From a virus: 61,440 bases of DNA. Made by a program: the position numbers and the translations under genes. Shown here piece after piece: positions 48,507-61,440 of this stretch. The stretch is from positions 1 to 61,440 of IMG/VR virus record IMGVR_UViG_3300041955_000322; one strand, written 5' to 3'. Each line of letters starts with the position of its first letter. Within the stretch, counting starts at the first letter, position 1. The notes under the pieces are model-generated. The model worked only from the letters and a program-made list of their open reading frames with translations, had not been told where the DNA came from and searched no databases.

Positions 48507-51401
48507 ATGGCGGAAGTCGATGATTGGATTGTCGATGACGGCAAGCCCCAGGATTGGGTAACGCCGCCGCAAAATCTGCACGACAAGATCGGTGCACGCG
48601 ATCCGCTGAATGTCGCGCCGGGCACACCTGGCGCACGCGTGCTCGAGGCGGCAGGCCGCGGCGCCAAGGAAGGCTTCGGCGATGAGCCGCTCGGCATCGT
48701 CGGCGGATCAAAAACCGATAAAGAGCTCGCCAAGCTCGGCATCTTCCATGACGGCGACAAGGGCTACGTCGGCCCGATCGGCGCCGTGCAGTTGCTCAAT
48801 GAAGCAATCTTGCGGCCGACCGCCGCCAGCGTCGATGCGTTCTTCCGCGCACTGAGCGGCGGCGTCTATGGCGTTGCCGCCGGCGCCGGCCAGGTCGCAC
48901 AGGAGCTCGGGCAAAGTCCGGAGCAAGCAGCGAAGCTCTCGCGCGATGTGCTCACCGGCGAAGACCTTGCGCTTATGTCGCACGTCCCGGAGCGCCAGCT
49001 CCTGCAGGCCGGGCGCAGCGCGGGCTCACCGGCTTATGCGCCGGTGCAATCGTCGCCTAGCGAAGTCGAGGCGTTTCTCGGCCGCGCCCGCGGCATGCAA
49101 GCGCGCAAGGAAGTCGATGACTTTCTCCGCGAGCAAGAAGCCCGCAGAGCAGCACAGCCAGCGCCCGCCGGCACACCGCAACTACCCCCTCCCTCCGAGG
49201 GTGCGCCATCTGCCCCGGCAGCGGCGCAACCTCCGAACGCGCCCGCGCCGGAAGCTCCGGCAGCCCCGGTTGCGGGCGCGCGCCCCATCGATGAGAGCTT
49301 TCCGAACCTCGACGAGCCGACGCGAGCATCGCCGGCGCCCGTCGACGATTGGATCATCCCGCAGGAGACGCCCAATGATCGTCAAGTCGGGCCAGGGCTA
49401 CCAGGTCAAGTCGGAGCACGGCAAGAACCTCAGCCGGCCGGGCCTGTCGAAAGCGCAGGCGGAGCACCGGCTCAAGCAGGTGGAATACTTCAAGCACCTC
49501 AAGGAGCACCGGCGGCCGAAAACGTCGCTCGCCCGAATGTAGCGCCGCCTTCGCTCCAAGAACTGTTTGCAGATCCGCGCACCGCGGATCAGATGAGGGC
49601 CGATCGCGCGGCGGAACGTGGCAGGATCGAAGCGGTTGGACAGCGCGGCGCCCTCGACGCCGGTCAAAACGTCACTACGACACCTGATGTCATAGCGCTC
49701 GGTCCGCCGGCGCCGGCGCCCGCCACCACCACTCAAACGGTTGTTAACGACCAACCGCCCGCCGCCCGCCCGACTTCCCTCCAAGAGCTATTCGCCGATC
49801 CGCGCTCGGCCGACGAGATCCGGGCGGAGATCGAGGCGGCGAAGAGATGGCAGCCAACCGCCGATTGGCAGGAAGTTCCGCAAATTCCGGGCGGGTATCA
49901 CAATCCTGTTATGTCCGGCCTCGAAACCCGCACCGAGGACGGCAAGACCTTCGCGCGGATCCCGCCGCCTCCGCCCACACCCGGCACCCCGGAGGCTCCG
50001 GTCGAGCTAACCGGTCCCGCCGACGTGCACCATGGCGCCGCGATCACCGCGGAGCCCACCCCCGCCCAGGCCGAAGCCGGCAATTACCGCAAGCGCCACG
50101 TCACCTGGAACGGCCTCGACATTGCGATCGAGACCGAGGCGGGGCAAGAACGCACCGGCATCGGGCCGAATAACGCGCCCTGGTCGGTGACGCTGCAGCA
50201 CCCCTACGGCTACATCAAGCGGACCGAAGGTGCAGACGGCGAGCAAGTCGACGTCTATCTCGGCCCTCATCCCCAATCCCCCCACGTCTATATCGTCGAT
50301 CAGATCGACCCGGCGACGGGCGCGTTCGACGAGCACAAGGCCCTGATCGGGTTTCCCGACGAGGTCAGCGCGCGCGCCGCCTATGCCGCGGGCTTTTCCG
50401 ACAATCTCGGCCCGGCGCGCCTGGGCGCCCTGCGCGCGGTCACTGTGCCCGAGTTCAAGACCTGGCTGCATAGGGGCGACCTCACCAAGCCCACCGCGTA
50501 CAGCGACCCTGTAGAGGCGGCGCGGGCCCTTGCAAAAGAGCACGGACTGAACGCCACCGACGCCGAGATCGAGGCAGCGGCCCGCTCGGCAAAGGACAAC
50601 AATGCTGACCTATTAGACGAATTGGTCTCCACGATCGAGCACGCCGCTATTGTCGAGGAAGCCGATTCGCCCGATAGTATCCAGCGCCAAGAGGCGGCAC
50701 ATGCACCTGTCACCGCAGACACGAGTGGAATTGGCAAAGAGCCTGCGCAAGCAGGCGAACAAGCCGGGCGTGCCGGTGCGCAAGAAATTGAACAAGCGCC
50801 GGCTGTCGTCGAACCTCATGGCAATGAACGCGATCAAGCTGCAGAGCCGGTAAAGAAACCGCCGACCCCGCAAGTCCCCGCCGAGCCGGGCACGAAGTAC
50901 GTCCTCCCGTCATTCGTCACCAATCAGTACGTGACCAAGAAGCCCACGCGCGGCGGCAAAGAGCCGAGCGATTGGACCGAGATCGGCAAGAACGAGATAG
51001 GCCAAACGCTCTACGAGGATCAGCGCGGCGTTCGCTCGTACATCGAGAACGGCGTGCGGACCACCGAGGCGGTTCCGATCCGGCCCACGCGCGCCGGCGT
51101 CGAAGTGGAGAAGCCCGAGCACAAGGACGAATGGCGGCTCGCGTCGGAAACGACAAAACCGGCGACAAATATTCCTGAAAATATAACCGAGCCCGCTCTT
51201 GAACCGATCGAGCCCTACGTCGGCACGGCCGCGCCCACCGCTCGCGATCTCATCAAACTCGCCAACACCAAGATGAACGATGCACAGCGCGCGGATGCGC
51301 GCCGCTACATCGAACGTATGATGGAGCAGATGGAAGCCGAAGGCCGCAAGATCGCCGAGCATTGTCTCGAAACGGCCGGCAAGTTTTCGCTGCGGGGATG
51401 A
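48507..51401 (+). CDS. Polyvalent protein with pyrophosphatase-like domain
   Basis: A 964-aa modular protein. Residues 1-320 are an N-terminal virion-type part (GAVQLLNEAILRPTAASVDA). Two copies of a short linker motif, SLQELFADPRTADQMRA and SLQELFADPRSADEIRA, lie near 350 and 425. About 520-665 is a pyrophosphatase-like domain of polyvalent proteins: RKRHVTWNGLDIAIETEAGQ, HPYGYIKRTEGADGEQVDVY, PHVYIVDQIDPATGAFDEHK. The rest is linker-rich. Such proteins are believed to be delivered with phage DNA to act early in the cell. The domain match is from memory. Confidence 0.75.
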   Translation: MAEVDDWIVDDGKPQDWVTPPQNLHDKIGARDPLNVAPGTPGARVLEAAGRGAKEGFGDEPLGIVGGSKTDKELAKLGIFHDGDKGYVGPIGAVQLLNEAILRPTAASVDAFFRALSGGVYGVAAGAGQVAQELGQSPEQAAKLSRDVLTGEDLALMSHVPERQLLQAGRSAGSPAYAPVQSSPSEVEAFLGRARGMQARKEVDDFLREQEARRAAQPAPAGTPQLPPPSEGAPSAPAAAQPPNAPAPEAPAAPVAGARPIDESFPNLDEPTRASPAPVDDWIIPQETPNDRQVGPGLPGQVGARQEPQPAGPVESAGGAPAQAGGILQAPQGAPAAENVARPNVAPPSLQELFADPRTADQMRADRAAERGRIEAVGQRGALDAGQNVTTTPDVIALGPPAPAPATTTQTVVNDQPPAARPTSLQELFADPRSADEIRAEIEAAKRWQPTADWQEVPQIPGGYHNPVMSGLETRTEDGKTFARIPPPPPTPGTPEAPVELTGPADVHHGAAITAEPTPAQAEAGNYRKRHVTWNGLDIAIETEAGQERTGIGPNNAPWSVTLQHPYGYIKRTEGADGEQVDVYLGPHPQSPHVYIVDQIDPATGAFDEHKALIGFPDEVSARAAYAAGFSDNLGPARLGALRAVTVPEFKTWLHRGDLTKPTAYSDPVEAARALAKEHGLNATDAEIEAAARSAKDNNADLLDELVSTIEHAAIVEEADSPDSIQRQEAAHAPVTADTSGIGKEPAQAGEQAGRAGAQEIEQAPAVVEPHGNERDQAAEPVKKPPTPQVPAEPGTKYVLPSFVTNQYVTKKPTRGGKEPSDWTEIGKNEIGQTLYEDQRGVRSYIENGVRTTEAVPIRPTRAGVEVEKPEHKDEWRLASETTKPATNIPENITEPALEPIEPYVGTAAPTARDLIKLANTKMNDAQRADARRYIERMMEQMEAEGRKIAEHCLETAGKFSLRG
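50499..50513. promoter_or_regulatory. Intragenic operator-like palindrome
   Basis: TACAG-CGACC-CTGTA, the perfect form of the operator consensus, inside the polyvalent protein gene. It could be a chance match or a stoperator-like site that blocks late transcription in the lysogen. Confidence 0.4.
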
Positions 51402-51857: not shown

Positions 51858-52070
51858 CTAACACGTCACGTCGAATAGCTGCCGGTGTGCGCAGTGCAAG
51901 CAACCATACTCGCACTCCCACACTCGATCGTGGTGCGCTCGAACGCTAGGCCACGCTGCGACTATCCTCATGGGGCCGCCGCACGCGGCACACTCGCGCA
52001 CCAAAGGTTGGGCGGCTTCATCAGGCAACACGCGACGATCTACGCGACGATCTGCTTGCTGCAGTGACAT
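51858..52070 (-). CDS. Reverse-strand zinc-binding small protein
   Basis: A 70-aa protein with CAACGGPMRI and CEYGCLHCAHR, a likely zinc site. It is transcribed against the late operon and divergently from the SpeD-like gene across the operator at 52155, so it belongs to the accessory module. ATG 52070 is chosen. It may be a regulator. Confidence 0.6.
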   Translation of the reverse strand: MSLQQADRRVDRRVLPDEAAQPLVRECAACGGPMRIVAAWPSVRAHHDRVWECEYGCLHCAHRQLFDVTC

Positions 52071-52154
52071 GGCAGTCTCCCTCTTGTGAGAGACGCCTCC
52101 CCGTTGTCGCACCCGACAATAGAACCCTCGCTGGCGGAAAACTGAGCAAAACGA

Positions 52155-52169
52155 TACACCCCGCCTGTA
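52155..52169. promoter_or_regulatory. Operator in the divergent accessory promoter region
   Basis: TACAC-CCCGC-CTGTA, fitting TACA-N7-TGTA, in the 155-base gap between the divergent genes 51858-52070 and 52226-52645. It ties this module to the same regulator as the immunity region. Confidence 0.6.
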
Positions 52170-52225
52170 CGGGGCCGGTTTGACCTAAATCAACGCACCC
52201 AAGCATCAAAATAAGGCGGCCGGGA

Positions 52226-52645
52226 ATGATTCAACGCAACCAAGCGTGGAAGCAGCGGCGCCGTCCGCAGCGCGATCGGCACGAGTTTGAAGCCCTCGGG
52301 CTCCGCATGTTCTTCCGCGGCATCGCGCTCCACGGCGATCTACCCGAGTTGGAATGGCGGGATTTCCTCGTGAAAGCCGCGGAAGCCATGGGCATGACGC
52401 CAGTGGCGAGCGCCGCCTCCTGGCAATACCCGCTCGCCGGCGCCGGCGGCAGCGGCTTCACCATCGTGCAGCCGATCACCGAGAGCTTTCTCGCGCTCGA
52501 CACCTGGCCCGATCACAGCGGCGCCTACCTCTTTATTTGCTCCTGCAAGCCGTTCGCGCCGGACTGTCTGCGCCAGGTCCTCGAAAATTTCCGTCTGAAA
52601 CAAGGGCAAGCCATCGGCGCGCCCGATATGCTGAGGCTCGCCTAA
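52226..52645 (+). CDS. SpeD-like (AdoMet decarboxylase family) protein
   Basis: A 139-aa protein of the size and fold order of class 1 S-adenosylmethionine decarboxylase proenzymes. The key segment GSGFTIVQPITESFLALDTW PD lines up with the SpeD cleavage and active site: the E-S pair where the pyruvoyl group forms is kept, as is a later cysteine (LFICSC), but the usual histidines of ESHxTIHTWPE are replaced (F and D). So it may be an altered decarboxylase for another amino-acid-like substrate, or inactive. It precedes an ATP-grasp ligase by one base. The family match is by motif, not by search. Confidence 0.65.
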   Translation: MIQRNQAWKQRRRPQRDRHEFEALGLRMFFRGIALHGDLPELEWRDFLVKAAEAMGMTPVASAASWQYPLAGAGGSGFTIVQPITESFLALDTWPDHSGAYLFICSCKPFAPDCLRQVLENFRLKQGQAIGAPDMLRLA

Positions 52646-52646
52646 C

Positions 52647-53903
52647 ATGACCGATTTCAGGTCCAAAACTTGCCTGGTTTACGACAACGGCCTGTTCGTA
52701 GAATTTGCGCGCGAGCTCGCCAAGGACTTCGGCAAAGTCCTCTACTACGTGCCATGGCAGTCAGGCTTTCCAAAATCCAACATCATGCTGATCGGGCAGG
52801 GCATCCCGAACATCCGCCGCGTCGACAGCTTCTGGAACATCCTCGACGAGATCGACCTGTTCGTCTTTCCCGACGTGTACGAGGGGCCGCTGCAGGTTCA
52901 CCTGCAGGGCCTCGGCAAGCGGGTATGGGGCGGCAGGATGGGTGAGGACCTCGAGCTGTGCCGCGTCGACAGCAAGGAGCACCTGAAGTCGATCGGCATC
53001 GACATCGGCCCGTACAAGGTCATCAAGGGCCTCGACGCGCTCCGCGACTTCCTCAAGAAGCACGACAATCAGTATGTGAAGATCAGTCGCACGCGCGGCG
53101 ACATGGAGACGTTCCACGCCGAGAATTACGACTTGATCGAGCCGAAGCTCGACGAGCTCGAATACATGCTCGGTGCCAAGAAGAAGATCATGGAGTTCAT
53201 CGTCGAGGAAGCGATCGAGGATGCGGTCGAGATCGGCTACGACGGCTACACCATCGACGGCAAATTCCCGAAGAACGCCATGGCCGGCATCGAAGTGAAG
53301 GACAAGGGCCTGGTGATGAAGACGCTGCCCTATGCCTCGCTCCCGGAGGAAGTGCGCGGCGTCAACGACAAGCTGGCGCCGACGTTCCGCCAGTTTGGCT
53401 ACCGCGGCTTCTTCTCGTCCGAAATACGCATCACGCGCGATCTGACGCCCTACGTCATCGATCCTTGCGCGCGCATGGGCTCGCCGCCCGGCGAATTGTT
53501 CCAGTTGATGGTGCGCAATTGGGCCGACATCGTGTGGGAGGGATCGGTCGGAACGGTGGTGGAGCCGATCTTCGACGCCAAGTGGGGCGCCGAGCTGCTC
53601 CTGCTCTCAAGTTGGGCCGACAAGAACTGGCAACCCGTCGAATTCCCGAAGTCGATCCGCGATAACGTCAAGCTGCGCAACCTCACCATCATCGAGGGCA
53701 AATACTACGTCGTGCCTCAAGCCGTGGGATTGCCGGAAATCGGCGCCGTGGTTGCCACCGGCGACAGCATGCAGGCGGCGATCGACGAAGTGCGCCGGCT
53801 CGCCGAGAAGGTGGATGGGCATTACCTCGAAGTGGTCCCCGACAGCTTGGACGAGGCCAAGGATCAGTTCGACAAGCTGAAAGAGTTCGGGATCAAGATT
53901 TAG
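52647..53903 (+). CDS. PurD-like ATP-grasp ligase
   Basis: A 418-aa ATP-grasp enzyme, a fold that joins a carboxylate to an amine through an acyl phosphate. The N-terminal pre-ATP-grasp part (CLVYDNGLFVEFARELAKDF, NIMLIGQGIPNIRR) is followed by the ATP-binding lysine region (QYVKISRTRGDMETF), a central lid and the metal-binding end (FFSSEIRITRDLTPYVIDPC ARMGSPPGE). It resembles phosphoribosylamine-glycine ligase in order but lacks purine genes around it. With the SpeD-like gene it suggests synthesis of a small amide or peptide conjugate. The substrate is unknown. Confidence 0.75.
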   Translation: MTDFRSKTCLVYDNGLFVEFARELAKDFGKVLYYVPWQSGFPKSNIMLIGQGIPNIRRVDSFWNILDEIDLFVFPDVYEGPLQVHLQGLGKRVWGGRMGEDLELCRVDSKEHLKSIGIDIGPYKVIKGLDALRDFLKKHDNQYVKISRTRGDMETFHAENYDLIEPKLDELEYMLGAKKKIMEFIVEEAIEDAVEIGYDGYTIDGKFPKNAMAGIEVKDKGLVMKTLPYASLPEEVRGVNDKLAPTFRQFGYRGFFSSEIRITRDLTPYVIDPCARMGSPPGELFQLMVRNWADIVWEGSVGTVVEPIFDAKWGAELLLLSSWADKNWQPVEFPKSIRDNVKLRNLTIIEGKYYVVPQAVGLPEIGAVVATGDSMQAAIDEVRRLAEKVDGHYLEVVPDSLDEAKDQFDKLKEFGIKI

Positions 53904-54378
53904 AGCCAGGACCGACGGCCAGCGGAGACATCATCATCGGCGCCGTGGCGCGCATCGCGGCCAGCGCGTGGTTTTCCAGGATCTGAAGCTCATCCTCGGT
54001 CATTCCGTGCTCGTCGCGCGGGGGCAATCCAGCCTCCGCACGCTCCGCATCGGTGATGATCTGAGCGCCGCTGTCGAAAAACAGGTCGAGCAGCTCACGC
54101 GCACAGTCACGGTGATGATTGCGCTGACTATGATCGCAATCGCAAATGTGCTTGCCGACGATGGACATGGTGTGACCGAGCAATAGCTGCGCTCGCATAT
54201 ATCGCCGGTTCATTGTGATCTTTGGACTCGACGCTTCCCGCCTCGGCAGTGTGCCTAGACAAAGCATTGCCATCCCACCGGCCCACGCCCCGCCGTTTTC
54301 CATTGTTGCGGCCTTGTCGCGGATTTCCGTGAGAGCGGCCCGCATCTGCTCAAACTGCCTTCTCTCAATGAGATCCAT
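53893..54378 (-). CDS. Reverse-strand hypothetical protein
   Basis: A 161-aa protein on the minus strand, tail to tail with the ATP-grasp gene (11-base overlap) and head to head with the giant gene. It has a helical start (MDLIERRQFEQMRAALTEIR), a CDCDHSQRNHHRDC cluster that could bind metal, and a helical end (MTEDELQILENHALAAMRAT). Its orientation marks it as a separately transcribed accessory gene. Function unknown. Confidence 0.65.
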   Translation of the reverse strand: MDLIERRQFEQMRAALTEIRDKAATMENGGAWAGGMAMLCLGTLPRREASSPKITMNRRYMRAQLLLGHTMSIVGKHICDCDHSQRNHHRDCARELLDLFFDSGAQIITDAERAEAGLPPRDEHGMTEDELQILENHALAAMRATAPMMMSPLAVGPGSKS

Positions 54379-54389
54379 CGCCATCCTCC

Positions 54390-57300
54390 ATGCCAATCAA
54401 GTGTCCGAACTTCCGCGACGATAAAGCCCGCGAGGGCTTCAACCAGGTGCTCACGCGCCTGGGCGGCATTGCCATGTCCGCGGATGATATCACGCCGCGG
54501 CAACCGTATCTCGCCCGGCTGAATGAAAGGCAAACGACGGCGTACTACCAGGCCCATTACCTGCACAATGCGCACAAGACGCCCGCGGAGATCGGGAAAT
54601 TCCTAGATGCGCTCGACCAGGTGCGGGCTGCGCTGGCCGCAGAGCCGGCGCCGGCGCCCGCAAAAATGCCGGCACCGGCGACGAAAGCGGAGAACGAAAG
54701 CGGACGGACTCCTTCTGTTCCTGCCGGGGCGGGTGTCGTTTCTAGCGCCACTAGCGCCACGCCCGAAGCCGGCCCGCTCTCGAACCTGCCGGCGATCGAT
54801 CTCGCGCGGGCGCTGGTCGAGCGGCTGCGGGACCCGAGCCAAAAGATCACCGCCAAGGTGCTGCAGATCGAGGCGAGCAAGGCCTACGGCGCCAAGCTTT
54901 CCGAAGGCAAATTCGACCGCAAGGACATTCAGGACGCGCTCGAGCTCGCCGTCAACATGCACATCATGCAGACGCCGGGGCTGCGGATCGACGCCGGCGG
55001 CTCGGCCAAGATGGTGATGACGCGGCTCGAGTCGCTGCTCAACGACATTCCGGCGCAGCGGGTGCGCTCCGAGGAACAACAGGCCCTGCAGCAGTTCTCC
55101 ACCCCGCCGAACTATTCGGCCGCGGCGGTCTATGCGGCCAATCTCCGCGACGGCGACGTCATGCTGGAGCCGTCGGCCGGTACCGGCTCGATCGTGGCGG
55201 CCGCCTCAAAGCCGGGTGTGAAAATCATCGCCAACGAGCTGTCCGAGCGCCGGACGGCCCTTTTGCGGGCGCTTCTCGGTAACAAGGCTGAAATATTTCG
55301 TGAGAACGCCGAGCAGCTCAACAACACCCTCCCCGATAGCGTGAAGCCCACCGTGGTGGTGATGAACCCGCCGTTCTCGCAGACGGCCGGCCGCCTGGGC
55401 GATCGCAAGGTGCCGATGACCGGCGCCATCCATATCGAGCAGGCCTTGAAGCGCCTCGAAGACGGCGGCCGCCTGGTGGCGATCGTCGGCCGCGGCATGA
55501 CGATGGGCGCCCCAACCTTCCGCGCCTGGTGGTCGAAGATCGCCAACGAATACGCCGTGCGCGCCAATATCGGCGTCGAGGGCAAGGTCTACGAGAAGTA
55601 CGGGACCACTTTCGGGACGCGTTTACTTGTCATAGATAAGGTGAAGCCGGACGGGACGAAGCCCGTTCTGGCGGATGCGCAGACGGTCGATGACCTGATG
55701 CGCGAGTTGGAGCCGATCCGAAATGCCCGGCCTGCCGCAGAACAACATCCCGCTCAACCGAGTGGCGCTGCAGTGGCTGAAGGAAGCCAAGACGCCGGCG
55801 CCGGCGCATTACCTGCATCTGCTGACACTGGCGCAGTGGGGCCTGGAACACCAGGCGAGCGGGGAGTGGCCGGACAGCGACCGAGCGGCGCTGCAGCACC
55901 AACTGGAGCTGCTGGACGGGTGGAAGCCGGCGGACGCCCTGGCGTGGCTGCTGGCGAACCCGAACGCGGGGGATCGGTCGGAGCAACAGGCGAACCTGCT
56001 GCGGCTCCTGGAAACCGTGGAGGACCCGAAGGTAGCGGCGGCGCACGTCCTCAACGCGATCTACAGCCGGCAGGTGAGCCAGAACCCGGCCTTACAGCCA
56101 GCGGCGAGCGAATTGAGCTAGAGCACGCCGAGCCCGGCGAGCAGGGCGCGTCGGAGATCTCCGAAAGCCTCTACGACAATTACGAGCCGCAGCGCGTCAA
56201 AGTTCATGGCGCCAAGCCGCATCCCTCGAAGCTCGTCGAATCGGCCGCGATGGCATCGGTGGCACCGCCGACGCCGGCGTACAAGCCGAGCCTGCCGCGC
56301 GCGACCATCGAAAAAGGCCTGCTCTCCACCGCGCAGCTCGAGCCGGTGATCTACGCCGGCGAAGCGCACTCCAAGATGCTGCCGGCGGCGGAAGGCGAGA
56401 AGCCCACGCGCAAAGGTTTTTTCATCGGCGACGGTACAGGTGTGGGCAAAGGCCGCGAGATCGCGGGCATCATCCTCGACAACTGGAACCAGGGCCGCCA
56501 GAAAGCGGTGTGGGTGTCGGAGAAGCGCAAGCTGCTCAGTGACGCGCGGCGCGATTGGTCCGGCATTGCGCAAAAGCCCGATCTCATCTTCGACGTCGGC
56601 AAGATCAAGAACGGCGAGCCGATCGGCGCCGCCAAGGGCATCGGCTTCATCACCTATGACACGCTGAAAGGCGGCATGTCGGATCAAGCCGCATTGTCCC
56701 GCGGCGGCTTCGTGCGCAAGCAGCAAGTCTCGGTGAACGGACAGAGCGGCGTCGTCCAACGTGTCGGCAAGGTCGCCCGCGGCAAGCCGGCCGAGATCAC
56801 CGTGAAGCTCGAAAACGGCACGACCGTCACCGTGCCGGCGAACGAGGTCAAATCGCTCGAAAAGGCGATGGTCAAGTCGCGCATCGATCAGATCGTCGAT
56901 TGGTTCGGCAAGGATTTCGATGGTGTGGTCGCGTTCGACGAGTCCCACAACATGGGCAACGCCACCGATGTAAAGGGCGATCGCGGCCAGAAGGACGCCG
57001 CCATGAAGGCGATCGCCGGCATGGAGCTGCAGAAGCGATTGCCGAACGCCCGCATCGTTTATGTGTCGGCGACGGGTGCCACCGAAGTTGAAAACCTGGC
57101 CTATGCCGAGCGGCTCGGTTTGTGGGGCAGGGGCACGCCGTTCGCGTCGCGCGCGGCTTTCGTGTCCGAGGTCAAGCAGGGCGGCATCGCGGCGATGGAG
57201 CTCATCGCCCGCGACATGAAGCAGCTCGGGCTCTACACCGCGCGCAATCTCTCCTACGATGGCGTCGAATATAACCGCGTCGAGCACAAGCTCGATCCCA

Positions 57301-60300: not shown

Positions 60301-61440
60301 TCGACGATCCCGAGAGCTTCTATGTGCGCAAGCGGCTTTATCCCGGCCGCGTCGGCTCATGGACCGACACCTTCAACAAGAAGCATCTCGATCCGATCGT
60401 CAACGTGCTCAAGTCCAACAGCATCGGCCTGCAGGAAGCGGGCGATTACCTCTATGCGCTGCACGCGGCCGCGCGCAACGAGGAAATGGACAAGATCAAT
60501 CCGGCGGTCGGCGGCGAAGGCTCCGGCATGTCGAATGACGAGGCCGAGAAAATCCTCGCCGAAGCCAGGCGCGGCGAGAACGCCGCAGCGTTCGACGAGC
60601 TGCGCACCAAGATCGGCAGCATCCGCGATCTCATCCTCGACGTGATGGAGAAGGCCGGGCTCGAAAAGCCCGAGGTCATCGCCAACTGGCGGGAAAAATA
60701 TAAGGACTATGTGCCGCTGCGCGGTTGGGAAGTGGAACCGGACGATGCACCGCCCGAATATCGCGGGCCTGGCGCCGGCTTCAACGTCCGCGGCAAGGAG
60801 GTCAAGCGAGCCTTCGGCCGCCGCTCCAAGGCGGATAATCCCTTGGTCAACCTGTTCGACCAGGCGTACCGCACCTTCGACCGCGCCGAACGAAACCGCT
60901 ACCTGCAATCGCTCTACCGCGCGATCGACGATCTCGGCGATGCGGCAGAGGACATCGCCACGCTCGATCGCGGCAAGCCGCGGCGCGACATCGACCCGCG
61001 CACCGGCATGGTGCGGACGGTGGAAACCTCAAATCAGTACATGAACCCGAAGGCCGTCTATCTCAAATTCGACGGCAACCCGCATTTCATGGTGTTCCGC
61101 GATCAGCAGCTCGCCGAAGCGGTCAAGCGGATGGGCCCGGAGAGCATGGGCGACACGCTCGGCTATCTGTTGCGCCTGCAGAACAAGATGAAGGCGCTGT
61201 GGACGCACTACTCGCCCGACTTCCTGTTTCGGCACTTCATGTTCCGCTACCCGATCGAGGGCGCGCTCAATTCGTTCGAGCAGAAGGAAGGCGGCGAGCA
61301 TCGCGTCTCGAAGTATGTGCAGGACAGTTTCCCGTTCATGGGCAAAGCGAGCAAGGCGATCTTCGCCTCGAACAAGGGCTTGCTCCACGACGATCCAGAA
61401 ATCCGGCAGATGCAGAAGGAATGGGACCTGATGCGCCGCG
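54390..61440 (+). CDS. Giant polyvalent protein: methylase, Sno helicase, zincin, LPD38
   Basis: The frame opened at ATG 54390 stays open to the window end and continues at base 2, giving about 2731 aa. Domains in order: an N-terminal helical part; an N6-adenine methylase-like domain (LEPSAGTGS near 258, MNPPFS at 325-330); a low-complexity linker (about 445-580) that is overprinted by another ORF; a strawberry-notch-type helicase (Walker A GDGTGVGKG near 680, DESH near 850, VSATGATE near 890, motif VI QGFGRTHRSNQ near 1245); a zinc protease motif HEALH (1788-1792); and an LPD38-like end. Polyvalent proteins of this build are thought to enter the cell with phage DNA and shield it or remodel host functions. 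The early methylase may protect the DNA on entry. Confidence 0.85.
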   Translation, partial: MPIKCPNFRDDKAREGFNQVLTRLGGIAMSADDITPRQPYLARLNERQTTAYYQAHYLHNAHKTPAEIGKFLDALDQVRAALAAEPAPAPAKMPAPATKAENESGRTPSVPAGAGVVSSATSATPEAGPLSNLPAIDLARALVERLRDPSQKITAKVLQIEASKAYGAKLSEGKFDRKDIQDALELAVNMHIMQTPGLRIDAGGSAKMVMTRLESLLNDIPAQRVRSEEQQALQQFSTPPNYSAAAVYAANLRDGDVMLEPSAGTGSIVAAASKPGVKIIANELSERRTALLRALLGNKAEIFRENAEQLNNTLPDSVKPTVVVMNPPFSQTAGRLGDRKVPMTGAIHIEQALKRLEDGGRLVAIVGRGMTMGAPTFRAWWSKIANEYAVRANIGVEGKVYEKYGTTFGTRLLVIDKVKPDGTKPVLADAQTVDDLMRELEPIRNARPAAEQHPAQPSGAAVAEGSQDAGAGALPASADTGAVGPGTPGERGVAGQRPSGAAAPTGAAGRVEAGGRPGVAAGEPERGGSVGATGEPAAAPGNRGGPEGSGGARPQRDLQPAGEPEPGLTASGERIELEHAEPGEQGASEISESLYDNYEPQRVKVHGAKPHPSKLVESAAMASVAPPTPAYKPSLPRATIEKGLLSTAQLEPVIYAGEAHSKMLPAAEGEKPTRKGFFIGDGTGVGKGREIAGIILDNWNQGRQKAVWVSEKRKLLSDARRDWSGIAQKPDLIFDVGKIKNGEPIGAAKGIGFITYDTLKGGMSDQAALSRGGFVRKQQVSVNGQSGVVQRVGKVARGKPAEITVKLENGTTVTVPANEVKSLEKAMVKSRIDQIVDWFGKDFDGVVAFDESHNMGNATDVKGDRGQKDAAMKAIAGMELQKRLPNARIVYVSATGATEVENLAYAERLGLWGRGTPFASRAAFVSEVKQGGIAAMELIARDMKQLGLYTARNLSYDGVEYNRVEHKLDPNQREIYDTLAEAWQGVLRNINDALKLTGGDKDSRTKSAAMSAFWGGHQRFFNQIITSMQMPSVIKAVEKDLAEGRQAVLQLTNTNEASQERAAAKAQTAEDIEDLDITPRDQIIQLVENSFPTQQYETYVDEDGKERSRPVTDSNGNAVQNKEAVAKREALIDQLASVRVPQGPLDLVLDHFGIDTVAEVTGRGRRFVLKPDEKTGQRRRVEESRPGSANQAETDAFQDAKKKILIFSEAGGTGASYHADNTAPSKDARRAHYLVQGGWRADKAVQGFGRTHRSNQASAPILSLVTTDLQGQKRFISSIARRLGQLGALTKGERKAGDQGVFAARDNLESTEAKTALTQFFRDIYNDAIPGIEVGDFEQQTGLKIRQSDEEGRSMGMLEDLPPITQFLNRLLSLKINLQNKVFDAFSERLDAVIEARREAGLLDVGLETVKADKIVKDSEQTVHTVEGSGAETKYVKLTLSHKFHPTEFETVAHNEWRKVVAWLKSPNGKVYAAAEAPSLTDENGRIIDHYRLVSPVSDSRTINKDNVEKRETKWTKIEKSEASALWRKEIAGAPEYVTRDMHLVTGVILPIWDRLKGNPRVVRLVTEDRERMIGRVIPNDAIAATLRALGAELKGGKEVLPGDLFEKVLAGGRATLANGWTLSRRTVAGEHRIELIGPQAFSEGQEVKKDGVFTERIDYKVRYFVPTNPAEGIQVLKRITQYRPVTELQEHGYVPDDLAAGDEPMFSVREGTVKGETDELAAAVARRLYPELRAELDRMGLTDIPLNLPGTLTAKMGGKQFELNGYYLQKAITVALNADDIANTLHHEALHALRDLGVFKDTEWQILANQSTRTWLRDYNIVKHYAHRDHLVRIEEGVAYAYADWATGKRKVDGRIARLFKRIRDFLEALRNALRGLGFKTAEDVFRDVKEGEIGARTRGAGGSEPMFSVREAPPAEFRDTPNLNARVRERIAQALDSKAARKFIEGVQDLSHPVKLLQDELELRREGAFDDPESFYVRKRLYPGRVGSWTDTFNKKHLDPIVNVLKSNSIGLQEAGDYLYALHAAARNEEMDKINPAVGGEGSGMSNDEAEKILAEARRGENAAAFDELRTKIGSIRDLILDVMEKAGLEKPEVIANWREKYKDYVPLRGWEVEPDDAPPEYRGPGAGFNVRGKEVKRAFGRRSKADNPLVNLFDQAYRTFDRAERNRYLQSLYRAIDDLGDAAEDIATLDRGKPRRDIDPRTGMVRTVETSNQYMNPKAVYLKFDGNPHFMVFRDQQLAEAVKRMGPESMGDTLGYLLRLQNKMKALWTHYSPDFLFRHFMFRYPIEGALNSFEQKEGGEHRVSKYVQDSFPFMGKASKAIFASNKGLLHDDPEIRQMQKEWDLMRR
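55723..56121 (+). CDS. Overprinted ORF inside the giant gene linker
   Basis: A 132-aa ORF in the +1 frame of the giant gene. ATG 55723 has GGAG about 11 bases upstream, and TAG ends it at 56121. The product looks like a folded helical protein (NRVALQWLKEAKTPAPAHYL, ALQHQLELLDGWKPADALAW, LLRLLETVEDPKVAAAHVLN). By my count only about 15 of 132 codons end in A or T, whereas the giant frame here has mixed third bases and encodes a G-, P- and A-rich linker. Both observations say that this frame is under coding selection. Leucine is nearly always CTG and alanine GCG, unlike neighbouring genes. No family is recognised. Confidence 0.7.
   Translation: MPGLPQNNIPLNRVALQWLKEAKTPAPAHYLHLLTLAQWGLEHQASGEWPDSDRAALQHQLELLDGWKPADALAWLLANPNAGDRSEQQANLLRLLETVEDPKVAAAHVLNAIYSRQVSQNPALQPAASELS
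61029..61440 (+). repeat. Terminal overlap, copy 2
   Basis: Second copy of 11-422, in frame with the giant gene. It ends with the window, so the true length of the redundancy cannot be seen. Confidence 0.95.

Follow-up and report, generated by a model that had tools for sequence, protein, structure and literature searches.

Dozens of uncultivated bacterial viruses carry, next to each other, a gene for a small SpeD-like protein and a gene for a PurD-like ATP-grasp ligase. We give an even chance to the reading that the two form a metabolic module of the phage, in which the SpeD homologue would make an amine and the ligase would place it in an amide. The pair was found in a 61,440-nucleotide stretch of viral DNA (the window), which spans positions 1–61,440 of IMG/VR virus record IMGVR_UViG_3300041955_000322. 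Family searches identified terminase, portal, head-closure and integrase genes in the window. Its ends form a near-exact direct terminal repeat of 422 bases (positions 1–422 and 61019–61440, 419/422 identical), so this record probably represents a complete or circular genome ∼61,018 bases long. It also encodes a D12-class adenine DNA methyltransferase (2001–2942, − strand, PF02086). The pair sits after virion-type genes, and the features of this region are as follows.

48507–51401, + strand: virion-type protein of 964 amino acids with an InPase-like domain (PF18823, E = 9e-47); its PHROG matches include minor head and virion structural proteins
51858–52112, − strand: divergent zinc-ribbon-like gene, 84 amino acids, with CxxC and CxxxCxxC cysteines
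52113–52225: intergenic stretch 5′ of the pair, containing GAAAACTGAGCAAAACGA (52137–52154) and the FNR/FixK-like TTGACCTAAATCAA (52180–52193)
52226–52645, + strand: SpeD-like protein, 139 amino acids (PF02675, 36.3 bits, cut-off 25), with stop codon TAA
52647–53903, + strand: PurD-like ATP-grasp ligase, 418 amino acids, fold nearest PurD, beginning with ATG
53893–54396, − strand: convergent gene with an 11-base overlap with the 3′ end of the ATP-grasp gene; 67% over 99 amino acids in the relative L063

A single base (C at 52646) separates the SpeD-like stop codon from the ATP-grasp start codon, as the first-pass annotation of this DNA had described.

Folds and active-site residues of the two proteins

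The 139-residue protein has a predicted class 1b SpeD fold. It passes the curated cut-off of PF02675 (AdoMet_dc), which was exceeded in 11 of the 28 records searched, and falls below that of the NCBIfam equivalog TIGR03330 (19.9 vs 75.65 bits). The AlphaFold2 model, built from a 42-sequence alignment, has a mean pLDDT of 88.1. The first-pass annotation had named the lack of a SpeD fold as one of two findings that would refute its reading, and the fold is present: the model aligned with Thermotoga maritima AdoMetDC (1tlu_A) with a VIA-align Z of 12.2 and an r.m.s.d. of 3.2 over 108 residues, and Foldseek matched it to 1vr7_B at E = 1.4e-5. The best VIA-align match that is not an AdoMetDC was human spermine synthase (Z 8.7), an enzyme that itself contains a SpeD-related domain.

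When the profile is aligned with 2iii, E-S falls on E-S, an aspartate on the histidine and the last cysteine on the cysteine. In the numbering of T. maritima AdoMetDC, E86-S87 corresponds to the processing site (S87 = S63), D92 occupies the position of H68 and C107 that of C83, so that the earlier description of a protein keeping the E-S pair and a cysteine without the usual histidine is borne out. S87 and C107 are present in all 42 aligned rows (taken from 50 extracted sequences), with position 92 being Asp in 40 and Glu in two, and position 86 being Glu in 37, Asp in four and Thr in one. Across 51 aligned rows, the processing serine is found in 50 and the cysteine in 49, the exceptions being the partial rows of L020 and L090, which were left out of the SpeD tree. 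The H68 position is Asp in 46 of these rows, Glu in two, His in one (L005), Leu in one and a gap in one. In PMC10407285, self-processing of T. maritima AdoMetDC is stated to require S63, H68 and C83, residues that the authors expected to persist in derivatives with ornithine (ODC) or arginine decarboxylase (ADC) activity. The SpeD of the pair breaks the expectation for H68, having Asp or Glu there in 48 of 51 rows.

The 418-residue protein is predicted to have the three-domain PurD/ATP-grasp fold (pLDDT 88.7, pTM 0.89). Foldseek ranks 1–13 in the PDB were all GAR synthetase/PurD (best E = 9.3e-22, TM 0.73), with 14–17% identity to PurD chains in the fold alignments, and a PDB search with the family profile likewise hit PurD (E = 4.6e-6). 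The window protein had no match to a Pfam, NCBIfam or PADLOC family and a best PHROGs value of only E = 0.09, its relative in L134 scored below the PurD sequence-model cut-off (16.8 vs 288 bits), and a BFVD search returned distant ATP-grasps only. A defence or counter-defence role was rejected, as the PADLOC search gave no match. Identical in all 40 aligned rows (of 61 extracted sequences) are K145, R150, E154, E187, E259, R261, D272, R276 and S279-P280-P281, of which we take E259 and D272 to be metal ligands from known ATP-grasp patterns. The conserved residues of both proteins are compatible with catalysis.

Two further features were noticed by eye around the ATP-grasp. A short C-terminal ‘GxIS(D/E)K’-type motif, which may be SHOCT-like, is shared by several proteins encoded at these loci, namely ATP-grasps of 445–455 amino acids and small basic proteins nearby (L002, L031, L034 and L091). 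An O-antigen ligase/polymerase-like membrane protein is encoded 5′ of the ATP-grasp in L002, L003, L025, L031 and L034, following a terminase-like gene in L031 and L034.

Conservation and genomic setting of the pair

Scanning IMG/VR with the family alignments yielded 52 ATP-grasp loci and 33 loci of the SpeD-like protein. Profile HMMs run over the 92 collected loci, a redundant set fetched mostly for the ATP-grasp, found the ATP-grasp in 90 and the SpeD-like protein in 69. Among loci found with the SpeD profile only, 31 of 33 also contained the ATP-grasp; the SpeD seeds were taken from ATP-grasp loci, and members of this SpeD clade that lie elsewhere could be under-sampled. L084 has the SpeD and no ATP-grasp, with its contig ending ∼550 bases downstream, and L090 has a SpeD without an ATP-grasp in 11.7 kb.

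With a 200-base segment of the ATP-grasp gene used to tell contigs apart, 49 of 61 distinct ones (window included) had an upstream SpeD homologue on the same strand. The first-pass annotation had said that its reading would be refuted if the pair were not conserved elsewhere; the pair is conserved to this extent. SpeD is missing from the other 12, two of which have no upstream DNA, leaving 10 of 59 SpeD-less. The stop-to-start gap is between −17 and +26 nt in 34 of the 48 loci with chosen starts; in L001 and L002, other genes spanning over 1 kb separate the two.

Across 44 pairs, the distances of SpeD and the ATP-grasp are correlated (Mantel test, r 0.62, reached by none of 2000 permutations). 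Taken by itself, a correlation of this kind could stem from common phage descent as well as from a functional link. Both genes are under purifying selection: dN is lower than dS in those listed close pairs for which dS was computable. SpeD evolves faster than the ATP-grasp, with dN/dS near 0.9 for SpeD in two comparisons (L091 with L081 and with L082). Between L006 and L026 on one side and L027 and L030 on the other, the SpeDs are 43% different and the ATP-grasps only 9–11%; in some lineages the SpeD gene seems to have been exchanged or to be diverging much faster.

A tblastn search of 50,697 catalogued phages gave no match to the window ATP-grasp (E 1e-3), the window SpeD (E 1e-2) or the divergent ATP-grasp of L054 (E 1e-2). 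In GTDB contigs, the ATP-grasp was found in at least two loci (a lower bound set by a pattern pre-filter), one in Bradyrhizobium sp. YR681 (L091) and one in a Rhizobiales MAG, and 297 genomes of the Bradyrhizobium order yielded one match, the known one. A host origin of the pair was rejected on these counts. In L091, portal- and capsid-like genes lie beside the pair (open reading frames read by eye).

The pair lies among head, portal or internal-virion genes, as judged from family searches in the window (head and portal) and from reading frames inspected by eye in L001, L002, L134 and L148. This position suggests that the pair is expressed late in infection.

We also considered the genes and sites flanking the pair. 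The first-pass annotation had placed a divergent zinc-binding gene ahead of the pair, within the span of its module; CxxC and CxxxCxxC cysteines are present, but membership of this gene in the module is not supported, since among 217 loci beyond the window’s own copies a homologue was found in L063 only (45% over 71 amino acids). We therefore rejected it as a component, and it is probably a neighbour. The convergent gene at 53893–54396 is likewise a neighbour of the pair. Its similarity to carboxylate-amine ligases of the YbdK type is weak (15.5 bits against a cut-off of 176.4) and probably due to chance.

The same annotation had placed the pair under an operator of a phage regulon. Three candidate sites were found, none of which has a second perfect copy in the window. 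The first is a perfect dyad, TTGTCG-N4-CGACAA (52104–52119), which overlaps the first codons of the divergent reading frame. The second, TTGACCTAAATCAA (52180–52193), which we assume resembles an FNR/FixK site, is absent from L063, the nearest relative. The third, GAAAACTGAGCAAAACGA / GAAAACTGnnCAAAACGA (52137–52154), is the sole candidate also present there. Imperfect copies are in excess for two of the three: the dyad has 18 sites with up to two mismatches (shuffle mean 2.9) and the FNR/FixK-like TTGAYNNNNRTCAA has nine with up to one mismatch (shuffle mean 3.2), counts that no shuffle reached. With no candidate recurring perfectly and one of three found in L063, control of the pair by an operator or regulon is not supported.

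A second SpeD lineage and a second partner of the ATP-grasp

The SpeDs of L005 and L032 differ from the others in the collection. Their AdoMet_dc scores are 59.7 and 52.0 bits, and a 58-protein tree places them together with all 10 reference SpeDs (support 100/99), apart from the other 46. The L005 protein keeps the serine, histidine and cysteine (ESGIQIHT), and that of L032 has Asp at the H68 position. That all 10 references have His is in part due to selection, as the motif filter demanded His or Asp at H68; four of the first 10 proteobacterial SpeD loci (L106–L109 of L100–L109) failed it, and L110–L117 were left out. The ATP-grasps of L005 and L032 fall inside a 30-member clade (support 100/100) in which 25 pair with the SpeD of the module and three with none, their exact positions within the clade being weakly supported. 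The ATP-grasp tree labels L075 as SpeD-less, but L075 has a SpeD that duplicates that of L074. The module SpeD is also found beside ATP-grasps outside this clade.

From these trees, the SpeD slot beside the same ATP-grasp has been filled from two lineages, one of them with a complete triad, which argues that decarboxylase activity is kept and that SpeD is not a mere structural partner. This exchange of SpeD lineage is the best evidence that the two proteins act together and that SpeD would be catalytic. It also bears on the alternative that the SpeD-like protein is a non-enzymatic subunit or regulator of the ATP-grasp, comparable to the AdoMetDC prozyme of trypanosomes or to the N-terminal SpeD-like domain in human spermine synthase; VIA-align gave both structures as fold matches of the model. 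The replacement of H68, the faster evolution of SpeD and the ATP-grasps lacking SpeD are what such a role would lead one to expect; the essentially invariant serine and cysteine, kept despite low overall identity, and the full triad of L005 in the same slot are not, and we regard it as unlikely.

The ATP-grasp has a second frequent neighbour, a small protein of ∼125 amino acids with conserved HxxxE, D, EPG, PY, H and E, here called HELVE. It lies beside the ATP-grasp or SpeD in eight of the 12 SpeD-less contigs and in eight contigs with SpeD. In IMG/VR, HELVE relatives are encoded by 350 of 430 candidate stretches, the best 80 of which were kept. These gave 77 distinct loci (by a 250-base stretch of the HELVE frame, a few on contigs among the 61), of which 44 have a same-strand ATP-grasp no more than 450 nt away that matches the family profile: 29 strongly (E < 1e-20) and 15 weakly, the latter possibly being other PurD-like ATP-grasps. 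A further six have such an ATP-grasp farther off or on the opposite strand, seven lie on contigs that end early, and in 20 it is absent with more than 1.5 kb present on both sides.

HELVE was rejected as a strict alternative to SpeD, given that both occur in eight of the 61 contigs, HELVE occurs without SpeD in eight, and it occurs without this ATP-grasp in 20 of its 77 distinct loci. The members scanned had no Pfam match over the cut-off and no strong PHROG, NCBIfam or PDB match. HELVE is a widespread phage protein and, with its conserved H, E, D, H and E, looks like a metalloenzyme. In the HELVE loci (L126–L217, L007, L009, L039, L045–L048, L054 and L059), its gene often overlaps that of a PurD-like ATP-grasp, and portal- or terminase-like genes are nearby in those read by eye.

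Since 10 of 59 contigs are SpeD-less and HELVE often adjoins the ATP-grasp, SpeD is not the sole ATP-grasp partner. The ATP-grasp is the wider core, and its pairing with SpeD is one well-conserved version.

A possible amide-forming pathway

In the module that we favour, the SpeD-like protein would cleave itself at E86-S87 to generate a pyruvoyl group, with D92 taking over the role of H68 and C107 acting like C83. The resulting enzyme would decarboxylate an amino acid or an AdoMet-like substrate to an amine. Phage SpeD homologues with ODC or ADC activity are known (PMC9992855 and PMC10407285). Because assayed phage homologues without AdoMetDC activity use ornithine or arginine (PMC9992855), a substrate of that type is the likeliest here, and a putrescine- or agmatine-type amine is a plausible first product. 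The PurD-like ligase would then activate a carboxylate at the expense of ATP and couple it to the amine, giving an amide. It may also accept other amines, supplied by the host or prepared by HELVE, which would explain the SpeD-less genomes.

Against this module stand the Asp or Glu at H68 (48 of 51 rows), the absence of SpeD from 10 of 59 ATP-grasp contigs, the faster evolution of SpeD, the genes that separate the two in L001 and L002, and the SpeD of L090 with no ATP-grasp. The frequent pairing of the ATP-grasp with HELVE also speaks against a simple scheme of two enzymes. The first-pass annotation had proposed a pyruvoyl decarboxylase coupled to an amide ligase; with the pair conserved in 49 of 61 contigs and the SpeD fold present in the model, this is still the best reading, without SpeD being the sole partner.

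The pair might instead be two separate activities, the SpeD homologue supplying putrescine or agmatine to the host pool as SpeDC and SpeDA enzymes do, next to an unrelated ATP-grasp. SpeD-derived ODC and ADC enzymes are established in phages (PMC9992855), the ATP-grasp also occurs without SpeD and with HELVE, and Microcystis phage MaAM05 has two SpeDs together with speE and speB. Set against this are the adjacency in 49 of 61 contigs, the second SpeD lineage in the same slot, the loss of H68, and the lack of speE or PLP-type ODC/ADC genes: searches for spermidine synthase (PF01564) and for PLP ornithine/arginine decarboxylase (PF02784) each found none in 25 virus records, which include the window and most of which may be fragments. 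For these two families, the first-pass observation that no polyamine genes are nearby holds in these records. A host spermidine synthase could be the partner of the phage SpeD. We assign separate activities a low probability.

Two catalogued phages carry SpeD genes in other settings. The MaAM05 locus is L118 (MW495066.1, 245225–251566), and its speH_1 lies in one of only four catalogued records that match the L005-type SpeD. In Pseudomonas phage ZRG1 (L124; OQ504961.1, 25685–31786), a SpeD gene of canonical appearance overlaps one for a ParB-N + N6/N4 methyltransferase; genes for DUF1441 and terminase come directly after.

A third alternative reverses the order of the steps: the ATP-grasp would load an amino acid onto a carrier, whether peptide, nucleotide or small molecule, before the SpeD-like enzyme decarboxylates the bound residue. 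Such an order would explain both the changed SpeD active site and an ATP-grasp able to act alone. No carrier candidate was found beside the pair, however, and among the 45 largest neighbour clusters SpeD is the only small protein that spans most contigs; we consider this order very improbable.

The closest known systems are class 1b AdoMetDC/SpeD and its SpeDC and SpeDA derivatives, which have in common with the window family the fold, the processing serine, the catalytic cysteine and an occurrence in phages (PMC10407285, PMC9992855). The window family differs in its Asp or Glu at H68, which leaves the S63-H68-C83 triad of the SpeDC/SpeDA type incomplete, in its score below the TIGR03330 cut-off, in its ATP-grasp neighbour, and in the 25 records having no speE or PLP-type ODC/ADC gene. 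PurD/GAR synthetase has the same three-domain fold as the ATP-grasp and is its best structural match, with weak profile similarity, whereas the window protein is phage-borne, 14–17% identical and without a Pfam or NCBIfam match. The amidoligase cassettes of LUZ24-like phages also place a phage ATP-grasp near other predicted amide-bond enzymes. The cassette of phage UFV-P2 comprises an amidoligase, a glutamine amidotransferase and an ATP-grasp (PMC3890496); there, a 291-residue ATP-grasp lies with the amidotransferase in the early region, whereas in the window a SpeD homologue accompanies a PurD-like enzyme of 418 residues, and the two follow virion genes. We found no description of the SpeD/ATP-grasp pair in the literature searched, from which subscription papers are mostly missing. 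As far as this literature shows, both superfamilies and the phage SpeD variants are known, and the pathway, if real, would be new.

Tentatively, and at somewhat less than an even chance, we propose a new phage pathway in which a SpeD-derived pyruvoyl enzyme with Asp in place of His and a PurD-like ATP-grasp would make a new amide metabolite late in infection; in many more phages, HELVE would replace or join the SpeD-like protein as partner. The product might be a cationic conjugate packaged with the DNA, for example, or a modifier of the virion or cell envelope. If this is true, an ATP-grasp family so far without a name would gain a function, its member in the window having no Pfam or NCBIfam match and no match in 50,697 phage records, and the SpeD fold could function with Asp at the H68 position. 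If the two enzymes act in series, they would constitute a phage-encoded biosynthetic step, of which we know no counterpart and whose product could be sought by simple metabolomics.
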